Shown here: positions 1-7,968 of the stretch, in pieces
How positions within the stretch are numbered: the stretch's first letter is position 1
How the letters are laid out: the number at the start of each line of letters is the position of its first letter
NCBI GenBank assembly: GCA_019694835.1
Contig: JAIBBE010000173.1
Span: forward strand, 1-7,968
Direction: 5' to 3'
DNA: 7,968 nucleotides
Source: Fimbriimonadaceae bacterium
Lineage (GTDB): Bacteria > Armatimonadota > Fimbriimonadia > Fimbriimonadales > Fimbriimonadaceae
The notes under the pieces: model-generated
Databases searched by the model: none
What the model was told of the DNA's origin: nothing
What the model saw: the letters and a program-made list of their open reading frames with translations, nothing else
Program-made: the position numbers and the translations under genes

Positions 1-126
1 GATGTTGCTCTTGGCCTTGCTCAGCGAGGAGAGATCGAGCCGCTGACCGCCGAGGGTGAAGAAGACGTTGCAGCCACGGCCCTCCTGCCCGATGTGGATC
101 ACCAGGTCGATCCACTCCGGGTGGTT
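1..126 (-). pseudogene. eccC: Type VII secretion ATPase EccC, downstream fragment of interrupted gene
   Basis: Read on the minus strand from 126 to 1, all 42 codons are open. They give NHPEWIDLVIHIGQEGRG, then CNVFFTLGGQRLDLSSLSKAKSNI, and continue beyond the window. The HIGQEGRG and GGQRLDLSSL stretches are typical of an FtsK/SpoIIIE-type ATPase domain of EccC, the membrane-bound motor that drives export of WXG100 substrates through ESX systems. The style resembles ESX-3-like EccC, but the paralogue is uncertain. The segment follows directly, in frame, on the fragment at 7843-7968, so the two were one gene before the element inserted. This half has lost its promoter, start codon and N-terminal domains and is probably not expressed as a functional product. 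Family assignment is confident; loss of function is an inference. Confidence 0.85.
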
Positions 127-155
127 CTTACCTCCCCAATGATGAGAGTTCGTGA

Positions 156-200
156 CGTTCGCGGCGAGCCTTAGCGGCGGTGTGGCGAACGCGTGATCCA
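156..200 (+). repeat. Left subterminal repeat array, probable recombinase-binding site
   Basis: GTTCGC (157-162) and GCGAACGCGTGATCCA (185-200) lie 30 and 58 bases inside the left boundary. GTTCGC and GCGAAC are inverted copies of each other 22 bases apart. The same arrangement occurs at the other terminus in opposite orientation. It lies directly upstream of the first recombinase gene, where binding could both organise the transposition complex and repress transcription. The repeat is seen directly; the binding role is inferred. Confidence 0.6.
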
Positions 201-205
201 CTGGC

Positions 206-1429
206 GTGCGCGACGCCCCTTTCCGAGGCGACGGATTGGAGTTCTCAGAGCCGGTGGAGAAGGCCTTCAGAGTCAAGCCGATTGTTCACCGCGACGGTCG
301 GCGGTCATATTGGATCTTCTCGGAGTTCGGCGAGTTGCACCGCCCCGCTGTGAACGTTCTGCGCCGTTTCAACGAGTCCACCCAGCAGACATACGCTTTC
401 GGCCTCGTTGACCACTTGAACTGGCTGCATGCGAACCGCCTCGTTGTTTCGACGGTCAAGGTGGAGGATCTTCGCCGTTATATGAATGCGCTTACCGGCC
501 GGGGTAACGGAGTTTTCGGTGTCGCGTGGCGAGACCGACCGCCGGTCGGAGCGTCTGCTGGATCGAACGTCGCGACGATTGTTAAGGCGTTCTATCTGGA
601 GTCAGAAGAAACTGATCCATCTGTCGTCCAGTGGCTCTCGGGGAAGCTCGCGACCGTGCGACGCGGCGGCAGAGTCGTTACAGCGAACCCGCTTTCACCG
701 AAGAAGCGCTCGGGGAAGCCGCGGTTCCTCTCGGATGAAGTGGTCACAGCGCTACTTGAACCGGGTGTCTTAACTTCCGCTCGGGACAGCATGATTCTGC
801 GTTGGCTGGTTGATTCCGGGATCCGGGTCGGTGGCTTGTGCGGCCTCCGGTTTACCGATCTCCATCTTGTTCGCGATCATCCTTGTGGGCAGCGACGAGA
901 TCCCCATGTTCACATCGTCGGCCGTGACGACAACCCCAATCGAGCTCGTGCGAAGTCGTATCACGAAGCGGGCGTTAGCCCGGATGGTCATGTTATTGAT
1001 GGCGTGATCCGGGCGGTGAGCGATTCCATGATCGGCACGTTCTACACATATCTACTTGATGAGTTTCACCCGATACAGCATCTCGTCAGCCACGAACAGG
1101 TCCTCATTCACTTGAAAGGACCGAGCGCAGGTGACGCTCTAGGCACAAGTGGTGTCCGAAAGATGCTTCGGCGCGCTTGCGCTCGAGCGGGGCTGAATAG
1201 CTATGTCACACCACATGCGTTTCGCCATAACGCTGCTGCGCAACTGATGGTGGCAACTGATTTCAATGCGGATCTAGTGGCGCAGGAGTTCGGTTGGGCA
1301 AGCGCTGAGCAGGTGACCGGACTGTACGGGAGAGCCGCGAATAGGGAGTCGACGAAGTTTTTGGTTCAAGCGTGGGAGGCAACGGCACCAGGCCGTATGC
1401 CTCAAGATACGAAGGAGGATCCTCAATGA
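206..1429 (+). CDS. tnpA: Tyrosine recombinase, TnpA-like transposase A
   Basis: Site-specific recombinase of the phage-integrase (tyrosine recombinase) family, probably the first of the two recombinases that cut and rejoin the element's ends. The N-terminal part (about residues 50-150) looks like a SAM-like core-binding domain. The catalytic domain shows Arg207 in SGIRVGGLCGL, a possible catalytic Lys250, the box HAFR (His337, Arg340), Trp364 in FGWAS where many relatives have His, and nucleophile Tyr374 in LYGRAA. Length is close to Tn554 TnpA. The start is uncertain. GTG at 206 has no Shine-Dalgarno and lies in a small inverted repeat (GGCGT-5 nt-ACGCC, 203-217). TTG at 236 has GAGG seven bases upstream, and GTG at 254 is another option. 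The gene ends next to a strong ribosome-binding site that serves the downstream genes. Recombinase identity is firm; Tn554 membership rests on the three-gene context. Confidence 0.9.
   Translation: MRDAPFRGDGLEFSEPVEKAFRVKPIVHRDGRRSYWIFSEFGELHRPAVNVLRRFNESTQQTYAFGLVDHLNWLHANRLVVSTVKVEDLRRYMNALTGRGNGVFGVAWRDRPPVGASAGSNVATIVKAFYLESEETDPSVVQWLSGKLATVRRGGRVVTANPLSPKKRSGKPRFLSDEVVTALLEPGVLTSARDSMILRWLVDSGIRVGGLCGLRFTDLHLVRDHPCGQRRDPHVHIVGRDDNPNRARAKSYHEAGVSPDGHVIDGVIRAVSDSMIGTFYTYLLDEFHPIQHLVSHEQVLIHLKGPSAGDALGTSGVRKMLRRACARAGLNSYVTPHAFRHNAAAQLMVATDFNADLVAQEFGWASAEQVTGLYGRAANRESTKFLVQAWEATAPGRMPQDTKEDPQ
1412..1418 (+). promoter_or_regulatory. Strong Shine-Dalgarno AAGGAGG at the tnpA/tnpB junction
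   Basis: AAGGAGG lies inside the last codons of the first recombinase gene, seven bases before the ATG at 1426 of a nine-codon minicistron. It is 33 bases from the tnpB ATG at 1452, too far to serve that start directly. It therefore points to translation beginning at 1426 and passing on to tnpB. Confidence 0.6.
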
Positions 1430-1455
1430 ACTTCGAAACGCCAATCCGCACATGA
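1426..1455 (+). CDS. Nine-codon minicistron linking tnpA to tnpB
   Basis: ATG at 1426 overlaps the tnpA stop codon (ATGA at 1426-1429) and is preceded by a near-perfect AAGGAGG at 7-nt spacing. It reads MNFETPIRT and stops with TGA at 1453-1455, which in turn overlaps the tnpB ATG (ATGA at 1452-1455). This double overlap is what a translational relay would look like: ribosomes finishing tnpA reinitiate here, then reinitiate on tnpB. The peptide itself probably has no function. It is out of frame with tnpB, so it is not an N-terminal extension. An alternative is a recent small indel that moved an older tnpB start out of frame. Confidence 0.45.
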   Translation: MNFETPIRT

Positions 1456-4118
1456 CCGGAGTTGCCATCGCAGAGCTCGCTGAGACGGCCCTTCACGAAG
1501 CCACGGATTCGCTGGAATATCGTTACCTCTCACTACCTTTCGAGAAGCGATACGAATTGATAAGCCAGGCTTTTCCCGGCTGGCTGCTCTCCGAACCTGT
1601 CGAGTTTCCCGGGGATCACTCCACCTTCGGTTGGGAATGTCGTGTCCCCGATTGCTCAGCGGCACTGCCAGCAACTGGCACAAGCGGGCTGTGCCCAGGT
1701 CACGTAAGGGACTACAAAGCGTTGACCGTGCCGATGGAGGTCGATGAGTTCGCCAATCAGGCATCGGTTAGGTCCGCTCGCAGCGACTGGGCCCTGAAGA
1801 GGAACGACGACTGCCGAGTCTGCGGACCTGCCCGGGAGGCGGCCGGATGGGGCCTTTGCCAGTCACACATGAACTGCTGTCGCCGGGCGATGGACGATGG
1901 CCAAAGCGAGGAAGACTGGCTGAAGACAGCGGTGCCCAGGCCGGCTTATCCCGCTTGCTCAATACCGCGATGCGTTCACGACGGCGTCCTGACGAGCTAT
2001 CCGGGCGGCGGAGGCCCGAGGATTTGCGCCTCGCACTACATGGCGTGGACCTCGTTCGCCCGTGCATCGAAGATTAAGCGCGACTCCCGGACCTGGAACG
2101 AATGGCTCAGCACGACTCGTTTCAGCGGCTTCGAGCCAGCCGGCAACCGAGGACTGCTTCGTCTAGCGCACCTACCCGAGAGCGTGCAGTGCGAAGTCAG
2201 ATACGCCCTGCACCGCTATGGAAGTTCACCCCGGCGTGCGCGGTGGCGTCCTGGCCATATTCAGCTGGCGGTCGACTGGGTGGCCGCAGCCGGTGTGAAT
2301 TCCCTCAGCGACCCGATGACGGCGGAACTGGTTGAAGCAGGCGCACATAAGCAGAGTTCGGGCATTTTGCGCGATCTCATCGTCGCGGCGCGAAGCCTGA
2401 CCCTTACTGCCGAGGACACCAAGGAGGCGGGTTGGTTCGACCCGATTATTGTCGGCGGGTCTCAATTCACTATTGGTACAAAGAAGTCGACGCGCCGGAA
2501 GTATTGGGACTTGACGGGCGTCTCTCAACGGTGGCTCCGCGACCTCCTATGGGAGCAACTGCGCTACCTTGCACTTGAGCCGGAGGGCAAGCTGCCCTCG
2601 GTGACGACTGTGCATACACGGATCATGTCGATGCGGCTTCTCTCGAAAGCGCTACGGCACCTACGCGATGACGATGGGAATGACCCGTCTCGACTGACCG
2701 CGGTCGATGCGAAAGCCTTCAAGGATTTATGGGAGCTTTGGTACCGCGAACAAATTCCTGTCGTTGAGCGAGTCGTGTCGAATCCGCCGATAATGGCGGC
2801 CCTGAGTAAGGGCATGCGCGGACGAAACGTCGGTTACATGCGGCAAGTTCTCATCTTTGGTCGTGACCAAGAAATTTTAGGACCATGGGTAATACCGTTC
2901 CTCAAAGAGTTTCCCCAATATGACCATGTGTCGAAGGCGCCCCAACCCCGTCCGATAAGTCACAAAGACTTTCAACTGATGCTCTGCGATGAGTCGCTGG
3001 ACCTACTTGACTCGGCCGACCTCTCCGATGTGGGTTTGGTCGACATGTGGTTCACGCATGCTCTGCAGGGTGGTCGAATAGGCGAGACTCTCGAGCTGCG
3101 CCTCGGCTGTATCGGCATGATTGGCAATGCCCAACCGTACCTATGGCGAGACATAAGCAAGATCCGCGTCGTTGATTACGGAATGCCGTGTTACTTACCG
3201 GTTTACGAAAGGCTGCAGCGCCGCCAGGCCATAACGCGCGCGAAACTGCGCAACCGTTACGCGAAGGAACTAGCAGCTCTCGATGCAGAGGGACGCGCCA
3301 GCCTCGAAGCTGAGTGGGATCGCACAATGCCCTTGTTTCCAGGCGCCACGACGAATCCTGATCTAGAATTGACTCTGTCCCAGAGTCAATTCAGGAGCAT
3401 CTTCACCGCGTGGATCGACAAGCTCGGACTTACCGGCATCACCAGCCATCGGACGCGAGCCACCCTTGCAACCTCGCTGCTCAATAATGGAGCGCCCGCA
3501 GCGTTAGTCCGACAGGTGCTCGGGCACATCTCTGAACGGGCCATCGCACATTATGCCCGCTATAGCGATGACAACATCGCCCGCAGCTTGCAACAGGTGT
3601 GGACGGCAGGTCCGGGTATGAAAGACGCTGGGACAGTGTTGATGACGCCAACTACTGCCGCAGAGTATGGGAGCAAGTCCGCCCTAGCCGATCGAATCGA
3701 CTTGACCGTCGTACCGGTCGAGCATGGACTGTGCCGGTACGGACCTGTCGTTGGAGGAAAGTCATGTCCCTCAAAGAAGAACTGCAGCAATGGCCCTAGT
3801 GGCCCATGTCCCCACTTCGTACTGACCGGAGCGGACCTCGCGTACTGGGAACGCAAGCGCGACGCCGCCTACCATTTCGCTGAGGGAGCCCCCTCCGACG
3901 AGGCACGCGACTACATTCTCGGCGAGTGGAAGCCTTGGGAGAAGGTCCTCGACGGCCTTCGCCAAACGCTCGACGAACTGGGTCTTCTCGAAGCCGCTCA
4001 GGAAATGGATTTGCGCAGTCCGGTGCACGATTTCTTTCATCCCCTATTCGCTACTGGGTGGACGCTTACGGCGTCTCAGGAGGACGGCGATGCGGTTCTC
4101 ACCGAGGAAGCATCCTGA
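1452..4118 (+). CDS. tnpB: Large tyrosine recombinase, TnpB-like transposase B with zinc-binding motifs
   Basis: Second recombinase of the transposition operon, 888 aa, longer than the roughly 630 aa of Tn554 TnpB. Catalytic residues lie in the C-terminal half: Arg542 in GGRIGETLELR, possible Lys570, His666 and Arg669 in SHRTR, His692 in LGHIS, and nucleophile Tyr701 nine residues later in HYARYS. The N-terminal region carries three tandem Cys/His clusters: C63-x4-C68-x12-C81-x2-H84, C121-x2-C124-x11-C136-x2-H139 and C169-x4-C174-x17-C192-x2-H195. A fourth lies beyond the catalytic domain (C761, C772, C778, C786, H788). These probably bind zinc and may contact DNA or partners. Start at 1452 is supported by its ATGA overlap with the preceding minicistron. 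The stop overlaps the tnpC start. Recombinase assignment is firm; zinc binding is inferred from Cys/His spacing. Confidence 0.9.
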   Translation: MTGVAIAELAETALHEATDSLEYRYLSLPFEKRYELISQAFPGWLLSEPVEFPGDHSTFGWECRVPDCSAALPATGTSGLCPGHVRDYKALTVPMEVDEFANQASVRSARSDWALKRNDDCRVCGPAREAAGWGLCQSHMNCCRRAMDDGQSEEDWLKTAVPRPAYPACSIPRCVHDGVLTSYPGGGGPRICASHYMAWTSFARASKIKRDSRTWNEWLSTTRFSGFEPAGNRGLLRLAHLPESVQCEVRYALHRYGSSPRRARWRPGHIQLAVDWVAAAGVNSLSDPMTAELVEAGAHKQSSGILRDLIVAARSLTLTAEDTKEAGWFDPIIVGGSQFTIGTKKSTRRKYWDLTGVSQRWLRDLLWEQLRYLALEPEGKLPSVTTVHTRIMSMRLLSKALRHLRDDDGNDPSRLTAVDAKAFKDLWELWYREQIPVVERVVSNPPIMAALSKGMRGRNVGYMRQVLIFGRDQEILGPWVIPFLKEFPQYDHVSKAPQPRPISHKDFQLMLCDESLDLLDSADLSDVGLVDMWFTHALQGGRIGETLELRLGCIGMIGNAQPYLWRDISKIRVVDYGMPCYLPVYERLQRRQAITRAKLRNRYAKELAALDAEGRASLEAEWDRTMPLFPGATTNPDLELTLSQSQFRSIFTAWIDKLGLTGITSHRTRATLATSLLNNGAPAALVRQVLGHISERAIAHYARYSDDNIARSLQQVWTAGPGMKDAGTVLMTPTTAAEYGSKSALADRIDLTVVPVEHGLCRYGPVVGGKSCPSKKNCSNGPSGPCPHFVLTGADLAYWERKRDAAYHFAEGAPSDEARDYILGEWKPWEKVLDGLRQTLDELGLLEAAQEMDLRSPVHDFFHPLFATGWTLTASQEDGDAVLTEEAS

Positions 4119-4687
4119 TGAGCCAAAGCGGTCGGCGCCGTCCAGTTGAAGCGATCGAGGCGCGAAACCTGCGAACGATCGAGTGCGAACAGCGGGTTCG
4201 GAAGGCGGTCGCGAAGCTAAGCAAGACTGGACTGCCGTTCACGGTCGAGGAGGTGTGCCGCCGCGCCGGGGTCGGTAAGACATTCGTCTACGACAAAAAG
4301 CGGCCGGAGCTGACGCAGCTCGTGCTGACCGCCAGAGACACCTCCCAAGAACGCGTCAGCCGAGGCCCTGATGTTGACGCGAACGAGCAAACCGCGTCGT
4401 GGCGTACACGCGCCATCAACGCAGAAGCGAGGCTGAAGCAACTTCGCCGTCAAGTCATTGCACAGGAAGCGCGCATCAGCGACTTGACGGGTCAGCTCTT
4501 CGATCCCGAGGGCAATCACCTAGCAGATGAGAATGCTCGGCTGAGAGACCACCTCGACAGCTTGAGCACTGAAATAACCTGTATCCGCGGTGATTTGGCA
4601 ATAGCTCAGAGGTCGCTCACGGCCGCCCGAGCACAGGTTCGCCGCGAACAGGAAAGAACTCTCACGGTCGTCCGAAAGTCGACATAG
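4118..4687 (+). CDS. tnpC: TnpC-like transposition accessory protein (DUF6262-like)
   Basis: Soluble 189-aa protein translated from an ATG that overlaps the tnpB stop (TGATG at 4116-4120), with GAGGAAG seven bases upstream. An open frame extends upstream to about 3926, but that part overlaps tnpB and the ribosome-binding site supports 4118. Residues about 40-65 (FTVEEVCRRAGVGKTFVYDK) look like a helix-turn-helix. Residues about 100-185 are rich in charged heptads with few glycines or prolines and look like a coiled coil. This plan and gene position match TnpC of Tn554-family elements, where TnpC is an accessory factor known to influence efficiency and orientation of transposition rather than a catalyst. 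Tn554 TnpC is about 125 aa, so this one is longer. Assignment depends strongly on context. Confidence 0.8.
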   Translation: MSQSGRRRPVEAIEARNLRTIECEQRVRKAVAKLSKTGLPFTVEEVCRRAGVGKTFVYDKKRPELTQLVLTARDTSQERVSRGPDVDANEQTASWRTRAINAEARLKQLRRQVIAQEARISDLTGQLFDPEGNHLADENARLRDHLDSLSTEITCIRGDLAIAQRSLTAARAQVRREQERTLTVVRKST

Positions 4688-4708
4688 CGCGCTCACGCGG
4701 CTTAGCTA
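4679..4708 (+). promoter_or_regulatory. Possible promoter of the lipoprotein gene
   Basis: TCGACA (4679-4684) and TAGCTA (4703-4708), 18 bases apart, resemble -35 and -10 boxes. The second box lies in a perfect 10-base palindrome, CTTAGCTAAG (4701-4710), that could be an operator. Transcription would begin close to the ATG at 4720, giving a very short leader, which fits the lack of a Shine-Dalgarno there. The match is weak and actinobacterial promoters are variable. Confidence 0.25.
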
Positions 4709-4719
4709 AGCTGCACCCC

Positions 4720-5229
4720 ATGTTGGGGAGAAGAGAGACGCTGCCGTGCGCCGTACTGCTGCTTTGCGCTTGTCTAGCGGGGTGCTCCGCCGCCAAATCG
4801 ACCGAAAGCGCCCCCGGCGTGGTGGCGTCGAATGCCCCCGCTGCTTCAACGCAGGCACCGGCAGCGGCGGCAACCTTGCCCCCCATCACGACGGACGCTG
4901 AGTTTCATCAGTACGTCGACTATGCGCGCCAACTGCTCCGTAGGAGCTGCTTCGACGTGTACCAAGCTCTCGACGCACAATGCACAGTCGACGCGGGCGC
5001 ATCGACGTCGAAACTGCGCGAACTCATCCAACGACTGCCGGCGGACAAAGCAGGCACGCGCGCAGCGGCTTCCCAAACCGTTGACCAACTCGATCACTGG
5101 TGGCGCGATTGCCAGTCCACCAAATCCAACACCCCGGCCCGGCAGGCCTGTATTCCGTACATGCCCCGCGATGCCCAGCTGATGTCAATTGAGGCGGCCT
5201 GGACGCTGGACAAGCCCGAGAACAAGTAG
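4720..5229 (+). CDS. Putative lipoprotein of unknown function
   Basis: 169-aa protein with a lipoprotein signal: basic start (MLGRRE), hydrophobic segment (about residues 8-20) and lipobox LAGC with the acylated cysteine at position 22. Residues 23-55 are a low-complexity Ala/Ser/Pro/Thr linker, usual for proteins tethered to the outer face of the membrane. The remaining roughly 110 residues form a probably helical domain with four cysteines (77, 88, 131, 144) that could make two disulphides, plus an HWW segment at 126-128. I do not recognise the domain. It is the only non-transposition, non-restriction gene in the element. It lies 32 bases after tnpC and could be co-transcribed with it or have its own promoter. 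The start codon sits in a small hairpin, CCCCA-TGT-TGGGG (4716-4728). Lipoprotein prediction is good; role unknown. Confidence 0.7.
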   Translation: MLGRRETLPCAVLLLCACLAGCSAAKSTESAPGVVASNAPAASTQAPAAAATLPPITTDAEFHQYVDYARQLLRRSCFDVYQALDAQCTVDAGASTSKLRELIQRLPADKAGTRAAASQTVDQLDHWWRDCQSTKSNTPARQACIPYMPRDAQLMSIEAAWTLDKPENK

Positions 5230-5230
5230 T

Positions 5231-5295
5231 GGCGCCGTTGGGATCTCACGGGAGCTCGACCGGCGAGGAAGCGGTCGCCATCAGAGAGCGGCGCC
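5231..5295. terminator. Possible bidirectional terminator between convergent genes
   Basis: The 86-base gap between the lipoprotein gene and the convergent restriction gene holds nested inverted repeats. The outer arms are GGCGCCG (5231-5237) and CGGCGCC (5289-5295). Inside them is a hairpin of CGACCG (5257-5262), 9-nt loop and CGGTCG (5272-5277). There is no T-run on either strand, so it is not a classical intrinsic terminator. The location suits one, and actinobacterial terminators often lack the T-run. Confidence 0.3.
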
Positions 5296-5315
5296 CGTCG
5301 CACTCCCCCTCGTGG

Positions 5316-6635
5316 TTAGCCCTCGTCGCCGGCGCCAACCTCAGTTTCTAGCCAGGTGGCGAGATCTCGCAGGGCGGTTGGTGTCTCGGGGATGTCGGCG
5401 ATGTCCTCCGCCGCAAGGAAATCCCTCACTTTGACGAAGACAATGTCAACTTCCAGATCCTCCGGCCTGTTGACCTCTAATGCTCCGTCCCTGGATGCCA
5501 GATCGAGGTCTACGAGGCTGCTTACTAGCCGCTCAGCAAGCTCGGGCTGCCGGCGGTGATATTGCGCCAAACAGCGATAGACGAACCGAAATGCCTCTGC
5601 GCGTGCGGCCTTTGTGATGCGAGACGCTGACACGTCCATGAGGGCATGGAGATCGAGGACTGCGACATCTAGGCCGAGCCGCGTGGCGATGGGGTCAACC
5701 TTTTCGGCAAGCTCCTTGCCAGAGAGCATGTTCGTCACGTTGGGCGCAGCGATAACCGCCTCGCTCAGCCGCGCTTCAGCTACAGCTGGCAACTGATCGA
5801 GCTTGTCTTCCCACGAAGCGGCTGTGACTTCGATCGCGCCTTCGAGGGCGTGACGATGGCGAATCTCAAGGTCGCCCGCCGCGCCACTTGATCGGTCATT
5901 GGCGCCGACGTTTTTCGTAGTCACCCGCAGGCCTGACAGCGACGCCGACAGCTCCTCGTTCAACAATCCGGCGAGAAGATACTGCTCCAGAGCTCCCGCG
6001 CTCCCTACAGCCAATAACTTCTCTCGTGCCTGACGATAAGCCGTAAAGCTAAACCGACTGGCAACGAGAGCAGGAAATGGCGGCATCGACGCTGCCTTTG
6101 AGAGGAACCCGTCTACCAGCGCCTCGGCCATCGCTCGGACTTCCCCAAGGGAACGGTCAGGATGTGACTGCCACGCTACGAATCGCCTCAAGCTGGCGTT
6201 TCGGACCTGCGGCGCCAGGTACCCCGCCCGAAAGGACGAAGACTGGAATGGCCCGCGTGTAGCCGGGATGTTTCGCGGCTCAAGCACCTGCGCACACAGG
6301 CGGTCACCAACTCCGCGGTCGCCTGCGATCCTGCCACTTTCGGTCAGATCCTTCGAGCTGCTGCTATCGAGATTCAGCACGCGATCTTCGGCCAGCGTGA
6401 ACGCGGCGAGCGTGAGCGCTGCTTCTGCAGCCTGTGAAGCGACAGGCGGTTCGTTCGCCAACGACCCAAGAAGGTCGTTCACGACCGACCGCGCCTCATC
6501 AGACAAGCGAGGAGCCGGCGACGAGTTCGAGGCGGTTCGCTCTTCAAACAACCCTGCGAGCAATGCACTGACAGCCTCATTCCTCGCGCGGGTGTCGGAG
6601 AATCGGCTCGCTGAGGTCCAGGCGTCTTTTGCCAT
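5316..6635 (-). CDS. Probable type II restriction endonuclease partner of the C5-methyltransferase
   Basis: 439-aa protein encoded directly after the methyltransferase, three bases beyond its stop, so the two are surely one operon and probably translationally coupled. The best functional signal is GAAGDLEIRHRHALEGAIEVTAASW (about residues 251-275). Asp255 and Glu269 in a GDLE...IEVT arrangement resemble a PD-(D/E)XK nuclease centre with Thr at the usual Lys position. An upstream stretch, GVGDRLCAQVLEP followed by a TRGPFQSSSFR segment (about 108-136), recalls the layout of SacI-family endonucleases. That likeness is from memory and weak. The N-terminal 100 residues are helical and nondescript. 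The role would be cleavage of DNA lacking the partner's cytosine methylation. Gene position is the strongest argument. The alternative is another methyltransferase-associated protein such as DUF4928-type. ATG at 6635 has only a weak Shine-Dalgarno. Confidence 0.6.
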   Translation of the reverse strand: MAKDAWTSASRFSDTRARNEAVSALLAGLFEERTASNSSPAPRLSDEARSVVNDLLGSLANEPPVASQAAEAALTLAAFTLAEDRVLNLDSSSSKDLTESGRIAGDRGVGDRLCAQVLEPRNIPATRGPFQSSSFRAGYLAPQVRNASLRRFVAWQSHPDRSLGEVRAMAEALVDGFLSKAASMPPFPALVASRFSFTAYRQAREKLLAVGSAGALEQYLLAGLLNEELSASLSGLRVTTKNVGANDRSSGAAGDLEIRHRHALEGAIEVTAASWEDKLDQLPAVAEARLSEAVIAAPNVTNMLSGKELAEKVDPIATRLGLDVAVLDLHALMDVSASRITKAARAEAFRFVYRCLAQYHRRQPELAERLVSSLVDLDLASRDGALEVNRPEDLEVDIVFVKVRDFLAAEDIADIPETPTALRDLATWLETEVGAGDEG

Positions 6636-6638
6636 AAG

Positions 6639-7712
6639 TCAGGCCACACTCACCCGTGTGCCTCGGCCCCGAGTGGCGGTAGCCGCCACATGGCGATGCA
6701 AGGCAACACCGACAGCGTGGGCGAGGTCGACAGGAACGGCGTTACCGATCTGGCGATACCGCGACGAACGTCGACCAGACCACGGCATGTCCGCAGGGAA
6801 CGTTTGCACCCGTGCAGCTTCCTCAGCGGTGATTCTGCGTGCACCCTTCACGATTCCGCTTCGAGGATGACCGCCGGCCATCAGGTGCTTGTGATAGCCC
6901 GGCACCACTCCGCCGCCGTCCAGCCAGGGCGTCTTGTTACCGCCCATGGAAGCGAGCAGCGTCGGGACTAGGCCATCTGGATTTATTGGACGGCCACCCC
7001 CGTTCCACAAGTGGCCATCCCAAGGACTCGGCCGCAAGTCGGGTGTCTTCGCGTACGTCACCTTGGAGACGTTGAGGTCTCCTACGGGATTGCGGGGATC
7101 GAGTAACTCCTTCGATGTGACCCACGCGTGCTGTGTGCCCGGCCCATGCGTGGCGTCCGGCCACTCGAACCCCGTCGAACGGGATCCAACAACGAAGAGC
7201 CTCTGGCGGCGTTGAGAAACACCAAAGTCAGCCGCGTGGAGAACCCTCCACCTCACATGAAATCCAAGGTGTGCCAGCTCGTTCAAGAACTTTGAAAGCC
7301 GATCGAGCTGAACGCCTTTGGCTAGCCCCGGTACGTTTTCCATTAGGAACGCCTCGGGTTTGACTTCCTGCAACACCCTGAAGAACTGAGGAAGCCCATC
7401 GCGCACATCCAAGATCCCCCGCCGGAGGCCGCCCGTTGAATACGGCTGGCAAGGGGGTCCTCCTGCAACAACGGCGATGTTGCCCCGCAACTTCTTGAAA
7501 GACTGCGCGGCAATGTCACCCTCGAATACGTCGAGCTGCTTCTTCGGGTGGTACTTGGAGTGGGCCGCAACGTAGGTTTCTAGCGCGTCGCGATCCATCT
7601 CTGATGCTGCGACTGGAACCATCCCGGCACGCGCCAGTCCAAGACTCAGCCCCCCGGCCCCGCTGAAAAGGTCGAGAACGGGAATCTCGGCTTCGCGGCC
7701 TGACCGGGGCAT
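6639..7712 (-). CDS. DNA (cytosine-5-)-methyltransferase of a type II restriction-modification system
   Basis: 357-aa enzyme that transfers methyl from S-adenosylmethionine to C5 of cytosine in a specific DNA site. All key motifs are present in order: I, DLFSGAGG (14-21); IV, GGPPCQP with nucleophile Cys88; VI, MENVPG with Glu125; VIII, QRRQRLFVVG (167-176); IX, RRITAEEAARVQTFP (292-306); X, YRQIGNAVP (319-327). The stretch between VIII and IX (about 177-290), with LWNGGGRPINPDGLVPTLLA and GGNKTPW, holds the target-recognition domain. I cannot read its specificity. Start at 7712 is backed by AAGGT seven bases upstream. The enzyme looks intact and of normal length. It is first in the operon, so methylation can precede restriction, and it would protect the host chromosome and the element itself. 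Confidence 0.95.
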   Translation of the reverse strand: MPRSGREAEIPVLDLFSGAGGLSLGLARAGMVPVAASEMDRDALETYVAAHSKYHPKKQLDVFEGDIAAQSFKKLRGNIAVVAGGPPCQPYSTGGLRRGILDVRDGLPQFFRVLQEVKPEAFLMENVPGLAKGVQLDRLSKFLNELAHLGFHVRWRVLHAADFGVSQRRQRLFVVGSRSTGFEWPDATHGPGTQHAWVTSKELLDPRNPVGDLNVSKVTYAKTPDLRPSPWDGHLWNGGGRPINPDGLVPTLLASMGGNKTPWLDGGGVVPGYHKHLMAGGHPRSGIVKGARRITAEEAARVQTFPADMPWSGRRSSRYRQIGNAVPVDLAHAVGVALHRHVAATATRGRGTRVSVA

Positions 7713-7745
7713 GCTCAGTACCTTGGCACGAACCTCCGACTAAGC

Positions 7746-7768
7746 GGGGACATCGGAGACGTGTCCCC
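7746..7768 (-). promoter_or_regulatory. Inverted repeat upstream of the methyltransferase gene, possible operator
   Basis: GGGGACA (7746-7752) and TGTCCCC (7762-7768) are perfect 7-base arms around a 9-base centre. They lie 34-56 bases before the methyltransferase start and next to the right subterminal repeat. The position suits an operator at or just downstream of the restriction-modification promoter. No controller gene is seen nearby, so any regulator would be the methyltransferase, an element protein or a host factor. It could instead act as a hairpin in the leader RNA or block read-through from eccC. Confidence 0.4.
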
Positions 7769-7769
7769 C

Positions 7770-7815
7770 TGGAAAACGCGTTCGCGACATTCTGACCTGC
7801 GTTTTTAAGCGAACA
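7770..7815 (-). repeat. Right subterminal repeat array, probable recombinase-binding site
   Basis: On the minus strand, GTTCGC (7814-7809) and GCGAACGCGTTTTCCA (7785-7770) lie 28 and 57 bases inside the right boundary, with 23 bases between the inverted hexamers. The 16-base block matches the left-end block at 14 of 16 positions, and the distances from the end match within two bases. This symmetry supports both the element boundaries and a role as recombinase-binding arms. Confidence 0.6.
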
Positions 7816-7842
7816 ACTGCTCTTCAGGCCACTAATGGGAGC

Positions 7843-7968
7843 GTGGAACAACTCGAGGTACTCGTCGATGAGCACCAGCAGAATCGGCACCGGCTCGAGA
7901 TCCCGGCCGGCCAGCCGCATCTCCTCGTACTCGTTGGCGTCACGGGCGCCGGCATCCTTGAAAAGCCG
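7843..7968 (-). pseudogene. eccC: Type VII secretion ATPase EccC, upstream fragment of interrupted gene
   Basis: Read on the minus strand from 7968, 42 open codons give RLFKDAGARDANEYEEMRLA, then GRDLEPVPILLVLIDEYLELFH. LLVLIDEY is a Walker B motif (hydrophobic run followed by Asp-Glu), which binds the catalytic magnesium in FtsK/SpoIIIE-like ATPases. The EYEEMR and AGRDLEPVP stretches before it are typical of EccC. The gene enters from beyond the window and is cut five residues after the Walker B Asp-Glu pair. In this frame translation continues into the element and stops at 7516, adding about 108 unrelated residues. A truncated EccC would therefore keep the N-terminal part but lose the rest of this ATPase domain and all that follows. 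Family assignment is confident; which ESX locus is not determined. Confidence 0.85.

Follow-up and report, generated by a model that had tools for sequence, protein, structure and literature searches.

The contig JAIBBE010000173.1 (7,968 nt; "the window" below denotes this entire stretch) contains a 7,716-bp element at positions 127-7842, which is inserted in an EccC gene and flanked by eccC sequence on both sides. Very probably, the element is one of the Tn554-related transposons known from actinobacteria; it would reside in the eccC gene of a Mycobacterium-group bacterium, bear the footprint of a foreign donor, and belong to a family for which eccC is one of several insertion sites.

Insertion point in eccC and ends of the element

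The two flanks were compared with intact genes separately, never as a joined sequence, in gapless alignments. The right flank (P0121) aligns to residues 581-622 of EccC5 with an E-value of 0.0009, a weak match owing to the short query, and ends, as judged by eye, in a Walker B-like stretch. The left flank (P0122) had no match in the PDB; of 60 genomes from the genus that includes Mycolicibacterium agri, 29 have an intact eccC gene that it matches, with identities of 81-98% (98% in the best case), which points to a host of the Mycobacterium group. In all 29 intact eccC loci, the separately aligned flanks fall on adjacent positions, the register being extended to the junction where, as in several cases, a flank alignment ends before it. 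Thus, in locus L059, window base 7843 corresponds to locus base 1500 and window base 125 to locus base 1502, and the single locus base between these partners places the junction at 126/7843. The junction codon is AAC or AAT in 15 of the 29 orthologs (Asn-His) and CAC or CAT in 14 (His-His); the window has AAC. Given the common register and a natural allele at the junction, nothing was lost or duplicated at insertion, and no target-site duplication is present, as judged against the same 29 orthologs. An earlier note on this DNA, made from the window alone, had proposed that a Tn554-like element splits eccC just past the Walker B motif and that excision of 127-7842 would restore the gene to the base; both proposals are borne out, as is the expected agreement of the flanks with intact genes of relatives.

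The highly conserved codon block that the same note had assumed at the site was not found. The LELF motif before the site and a Trp after it are invariant in these 29 orthologs, but the crossover codons themselves vary; an eight-residue window at the site scores 0.746, compared with a mean of 0.791 over 1,006 columns, and 65.6% of the windows are equally or more conserved. Two intact orthologs score above the cut-offs for TIGR03924 and TIGR03925, which identifies an EccCa domain. The best solved chain is that of EccC5, which is not decisive for the ESX paralog.

The limits of the element were set from the intact eccC orthologs and from the termini of its relatives. The left end matches the left ends of relatives at 68-100% identity over 24-80 nt, and CTTA is the start in 10 of the 12 relatives tested. 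At the right end, the element closes with CTAA at a distance of 63 nt from where a GAACGCGTTC-like motif starts, L092 and L094 having 64 nt; the search pattern required this motif and CTAA, with the spacing left free. Of 12 listed elements, 11 share the 63-nt length of the right terminal region, and L092 has 64 nt. Among the loci examined, L010 has a run of CTTAG repeats right before the left end of its element (positions ~3910-3950), perhaps scars of repeated insertion, and CTTAG also occurs upstream of tnpA in the Listeria grayi plasmid pLIS54. A contig binned as Phycisphaerae (L008, positions 1-118) opens almost at the left end of an element ~87% identical to those of strain TY81 and is probably mis-binned and cut at the element edge.

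The upstream part of eccC reads into the element, where the frame stops at 7516, and the sole in-frame start available to the downstream part is an element-borne TTG at 276 on the reverse strand. The function of this EccC is therefore likely to be lost, as the earlier note had anticipated for the ESX system. The left end of the element is open in frame into downstream eccC (window 1-276, reverse strand), and a separate downstream fragment could be translated. Both flanks measure exactly 126 nt (1-126 and 7843-7968); random contig ends would seldom agree to the base. Equal flanks are expected if the contig forms one branch of a bubble in an assembly graph that has a 126-nt overlap, in which case the terminal 126-mers also continued otherwise in the sample, most simply as uninterrupted eccC. 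This suggests that the sample contained a mixture of filled and empty alleles.

Insertion sites and right-end hexamers of related elements

A contig scan for TnpA relatives yielded 23 loci, one of them remote (34% identity); 21 of the 23 also encode a TnpB relative. At E <= 1e-60, TnpA was detected in five of the 401 genomes of the family and in 20 of the 396 genomes of the genus. When the 72 loci around TnpA matches were compared with the two eccC flanks, neither flank gave a match; these loci include repeated instances of one place and some distant integrases, and a few lack a flank (in L008 and L021, the left one). The survey of target sites covers relatives other than the four nearest ones in the TnpA tree, P0002, P0003, P0004 and P0006, which are 71-77% identical to the window protein.

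The relatives lie in several different genes. A T2SSE/TadA-type ATPase gene (TadA is our own name; the Pfam match is to PF00437) is the target in L003, L006, L007 and L089, according to right-side alignment, and in L011 and L012, where the left side was read by eye. An alpha/beta-hydrolase gene is interrupted at the codons of the GHSMG elbow in L090 and L099, and the same site is seen in the fused proteins P0022, P0025 and P0028; P0026, P0030 and P0035 are candidates for it, as they contain the same Pfam domains as these fusions. On plasmids pTY81_01 (L098, 7940-9220) and pTY66_01 (L099, 7752-9401), the frame running into tnpA is annotated as an alpha/beta fold hydrolase, the insertion lying in the hydrolase gene. 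Additional targets are an RNB gene (L018/L094, and L092 by similarity), a Ser/Thr kinase gene on the right side of L016, and DUF1942 genes, one on the right side of L017 and one read by eye in L093, where identity with the gene on the left side is not established. One genome (G571, which we take to be Mycolicibacterium sp. TY81) has three 99.9% identical copies, located in the TadA gene, in the hydrolase gene of pTY81_01 and in an unnamed open frame. No DNA consensus shared by the target sites was seen by eye, and none was computed. One clade of the TnpA tree contains, intermixed, elements inserted in TadA and in hydrolase genes, and the tree shows zero difference within the pairs L006/P0028 and L089/L099. 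The earlier note had asked whether the tnpABC set always occupies the same eccC codon, and had named relatives scattered over unrelated sites as evidence against its view; outside the four nearest relatives, such scatter is largely what we observe.

Hexamers at the right end were compared in 15 relatives. In L003, L006, L007, L088, L089 and L090, the target gene or a comparison of copies also determines where this end lies. L098, from the same record as L090, and L099, on the sister plasmid, were not counted separately. The right-end profile gave no end in L001, L002, L005, L009, L010, L011, L012, L013, L014, L015, L020, L021, L022, L091 and L100; all of these are outside the count except L012, for which the end was inferred from L144, another contig of the same genome. 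The M. agri TadA gene on L144 breaks off at the end of the match, most likely at the right end of the L012 element, and the hexamer is CGCGGT.

In 9 of the 15 relatives, the hexamer could be assigned to the core of the element's own target or to one of two recurrent homes. It equals the element's own left core in three (ACCGGT in L003, CACGGC in L092, CACGGA in L094). Three copies located outside TadA (L019, L088 and L090) end in the TadA-site core GCCGGT, and three copies located in TadA end in hydrolase cores, GGGTGG in L006 and L089 and GGGAGG in L007. Intact TadA genes have GCCGGT at the site in 15 of 29 cases and ACCGGT in three. In the intact hydrolase genes (18, after omission from 19 loci of L119, the alignment of which stops short of the site), the core is invariably GGGNGG, including GGGTGG in two and GGGAGG in two. 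The agreement of the footprints with the cores of intact TadA and hydrolase genes suggests that the right hexamer preserves the sequence of the previous site, as has been reported for Tn554-related elements and for strand-biased elements (SEs).

Donor of the window element and competing explanations

The hexamer in this place in the window is GGGAGC. The orthologous eccC codons, [AC]A[CT]CA[CT], would leave [AG]TG[AG]T[TG], which GGGAGC does not fit; thus, this eccC site, in any of the forms found in the 29 orthologs, did not serve as the last donor. GGGAGC does fit AT[G GGN GC], as encoded at hydrolase elbows with the sequence GHSMGA, a form found in pTY81_01 and implied by P0022. A GHSMGA-type alpha/beta-hydrolase gene is accordingly a lead for the origin of the footprint that we consider evenly poised. 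By analogy with the route described for Tn554 and SEs, TnpA and TnpB, with TnpC, would circularize a copy bearing 6 bp from the left of the old site; on insertion, the 6 bp of the new target would remain on the left, and the carried 6 bp would become the right footprint. Here, the target was eccC, cut past the Walker B motif, which should inactivate this EccC, and the donor was something other than an eccC ortholog; among known homes, the alpha/beta-hydrolase elbow GHSMG[A] fits best.

Several observations weigh against this account. No movement of the element has been observed. Six of the 15 footprints fit no known home (GACGGC in L004, CGCGGT in L012, GCAGGG in L016, TCGAAC in L017, CCGAAT in L093 and ACCGGC in L101), and the right ends of L004, L019 and L101 come from the pattern only, with no named target gene. 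GGGAGC itself is absent from the 18 intact hydrolase cores, and GGGNGC is seen only at the pTY81_01 hydrolase and implied by the protein P0022. Finally, the elements with TadA and hydrolase homes fall in a different TnpA clade from that of the window.

The earlier note suggested eccC as a dedicated, conserved target that could serve as a safe harbor across actinobacteria; on such a view, this lineage would move from eccC to eccC. The site is indeed exact and in frame, the four nearest TnpA relatives fall outside the site survey, and some elements, namely, those in RNB genes (L092, L094) and that of Nocardia (L003), do bear the core of their own target. However, GGGAGC cannot be derived from the orthologs' codons, none of the 72 loci has an eccC flank, relatives sit in other genes, and the site is not especially conserved, which makes a dedicated eccC target quite improbable. 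It is rather unlikely, although less strained, that eccC is one of two or more homes between which the window's subclade alternates, as the TY81 subclade does between TadA and hydrolase genes. In that subclade, three TadA copies carry hydrolase footprints and a hydrolase copy carries a TadA footprint, and the footprint in the window is likewise foreign; nevertheless, no second eccC insertion was found among the 72 loci. That the join between element and eccC is an artifact of assembly is hardly credible: the contig is short and its equal 126-nt flanks point to the assembly graph as the probable source of its ends, but both ends of the element match the family termini exactly where eccC stops, and all 29 loci agree exactly in register. 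Assignment to SEs or GInts instead of the Tn554 type would accommodate the same 6-bp footprint logic, as described for SEs in the part of PMC10214605 available to us, but is very improbable: those elements carry a further recombination gene, tfp or ginC, whereas the genes left over here encode a lipoprotein-like protein, a methyltransferase and a likely restriction enzyme. Among the six proteins of the element, only TnpA and TnpB matched recombinase families in general scans, no search with a tfp or ginC model having been made.

The reading we prefer thus remains that of a Tn554-related transposon that came to eccC from a different gene. A bolder and, on balance, doubtful extension is that Tn554-like elements of actinobacteria switch back and forth among a small number of homes in the codons of protein motifs (the TadA-type secretion ATPase, the GHSMG elbow of the hydrolase and, for the window's subclade, eccC), that each copy keeps a six-base record of its last home, and that the sample behind the window contained this eccC in both its filled and its empty form. 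If so, routes of travel across genes, plasmids and species could be read from sequence alone. The right-end hexamers would serve as a record of origin for mycobacterial elements, the footprint mechanism itself being already known for Tn554; in strain TY81, for instance, the footprints indicate that the copies in the plasmid gene and at the second chromosomal site both came from a TadA site. From an exact in-frame insertion alone, a dedicated target does not follow.

Gene content, cargo and known relatives of the element

Features of the window, with the evidence for each
Feature	Positions	Strand	Basis
eccC, 3' side	1..126	-	P0122 compared with intact eccC
Left 6-bp core GTGGTT, part of the eccC target	121..126	+	left cores of relatives; intact codons
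Tn554-related element, 7716 bp	127..7842	.	intact orthologs; ends of relatives
Left terminal region, starting CTTAC, with GTTCGTGACGTTCGCGG-type repeats	127..205	+	left ends of relatives
tnpA, tyrosine recombinase	254..1429	+	PF00589, 2.8e-13; alignment of relatives; motifs
tnpB, long tyrosine recombinase, 888 aa	1452..4118	+	PF00589, 5.4e-10; motifs
tnpC, TnpC-like accessory protein, 189 aa	4118..4687	+	DUF6262, 8.9e-5 (under the curated cut-off)
Lipoprotein-like cargo protein, 169 aa	4720..5229	+	LAGC lipobox, by eye
Likely type II restriction endonuclease, adjoining the methyltransferase	5316..6635	-	PADLOC REase_II, 1.5e-10
C5-cytosine DNA methyltransferase	6639..7712	-	PF00145, 5.4e-59; TIGR00675, 8.9e-51
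Right terminal region, 63 nt, ending CTAAT	7774..7836	+	pattern shared with relatives
6-bp donor footprint GGGAGC	7837..7842	+	same place as the hexamers of 15 relatives
eccC, 5' side, ending just past the Walker B motif	7843..7968	-	P0121 compared with EccC5 581-622

The recombination genes are arranged in the order tnpA-tnpB-tnpC at one end of the element. The tnpA frame is open from 206 (407 aa), and relatives point to a GTG start at 254. The Arg, His-x-x-Arg and Tyr motifs are kept in both TnpA and TnpB, so that both recombinases look intact. The three proteins match, in the same order, those of a trio on L. grayi pLIS54 (E-values of 8e-18, 3e-13 and 3e-6), the TnpC counterpart being a DUF6262 protein; the comparison is with this trio and not with the proteins of Tn554 itself. 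The L. grayi trio (L151, 1876-5438), the third gene of which is annotated as DUF6262, lies between two Y-family polymerase genes of opposite strand. Its interpretation as an insertion in a split polymerase gene was rejected because these two neighbors face opposite strands. An Rfam scan of the window gave no match. Near matches to the window among plasmids were limited to two records covering 3% of it, and there were none among phages and viral contigs.

Profile scans detected no family match for the lipoprotein-like protein. The methyltransferase is firmly identified as a C5-cytosine enzyme, and its neighbor is likely a type II restriction enzyme, predicted from its PADLOC match; this protein had no match in the PDB or in Pfam. 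A PF09566 label (presumably RE_SacI) is precomputed for 8 of 36 relatives of the restriction enzyme, and our own scan detected the family in none of 16, six of which bear that label. With 4 occurrences against 2.5 expected, GAGCTC shows no depletion in the element, and no recognition site is claimed. A relative of the restriction enzyme (P0124, 74% identity) and a relative of TnpA (P0006, 71%) may share one 7,158-nt contig, which suggests that the likely restriction-modification pair may travel with elements of this type. With such a cargo, the element would be a compact carrier of restriction-modification systems among mycobacteria.

No publication pairing Tn554 with eccC, and no survey of the targets of actinobacterial Tn554-related elements, was found in the open-license full-text literature. 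The element is a further member of the already known actinobacterial class of Tn554-related transposons, defined in 2012 by clustering of recombinases (PMC3414803). As described in the available portion of that paper, these transposons share with the window element an ordinary and a long tyrosine recombinase and a TnpC-like protein and reside on chromosomes and plasmids of Mycobacterium and Rhodococcus; cases in Mycobacterium are listed, and identical copies on chromosome and plasmid are noted. That portion of the text names no target genes, whereas here targets, ends and footprints could be determined, with a likely restriction-modification pair among the cargo. With Tn554, Tn558 and Tn6188 of Firmicutes, the element shares tnpABC, 6-bp junction sequences, a target within a coding gene and the lack of target duplication; judging from the accessible text of PMC3788773, however, those transposons prefer one radC site, and the present family uses several genes. 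A single preferred target is a trait of the Firmicutes members and not of every tnpABC element, as exemplified by Tn552-II of Staphylococcus, which differs from the window element in its 7-bp att and resistance cargo (PMC12486829, as excerpted). The footprint model has been published for Tn554-related elements and for SEs (PMC12486829 and PMC10214605, in the sections available). In SEs, likewise, the right side of the new site receives a copy of the 6 bp lying to the left of the donor site, but those elements are described as having four recombination genes and as residing in Gammaproteobacteria (PMC10214605, same sections).

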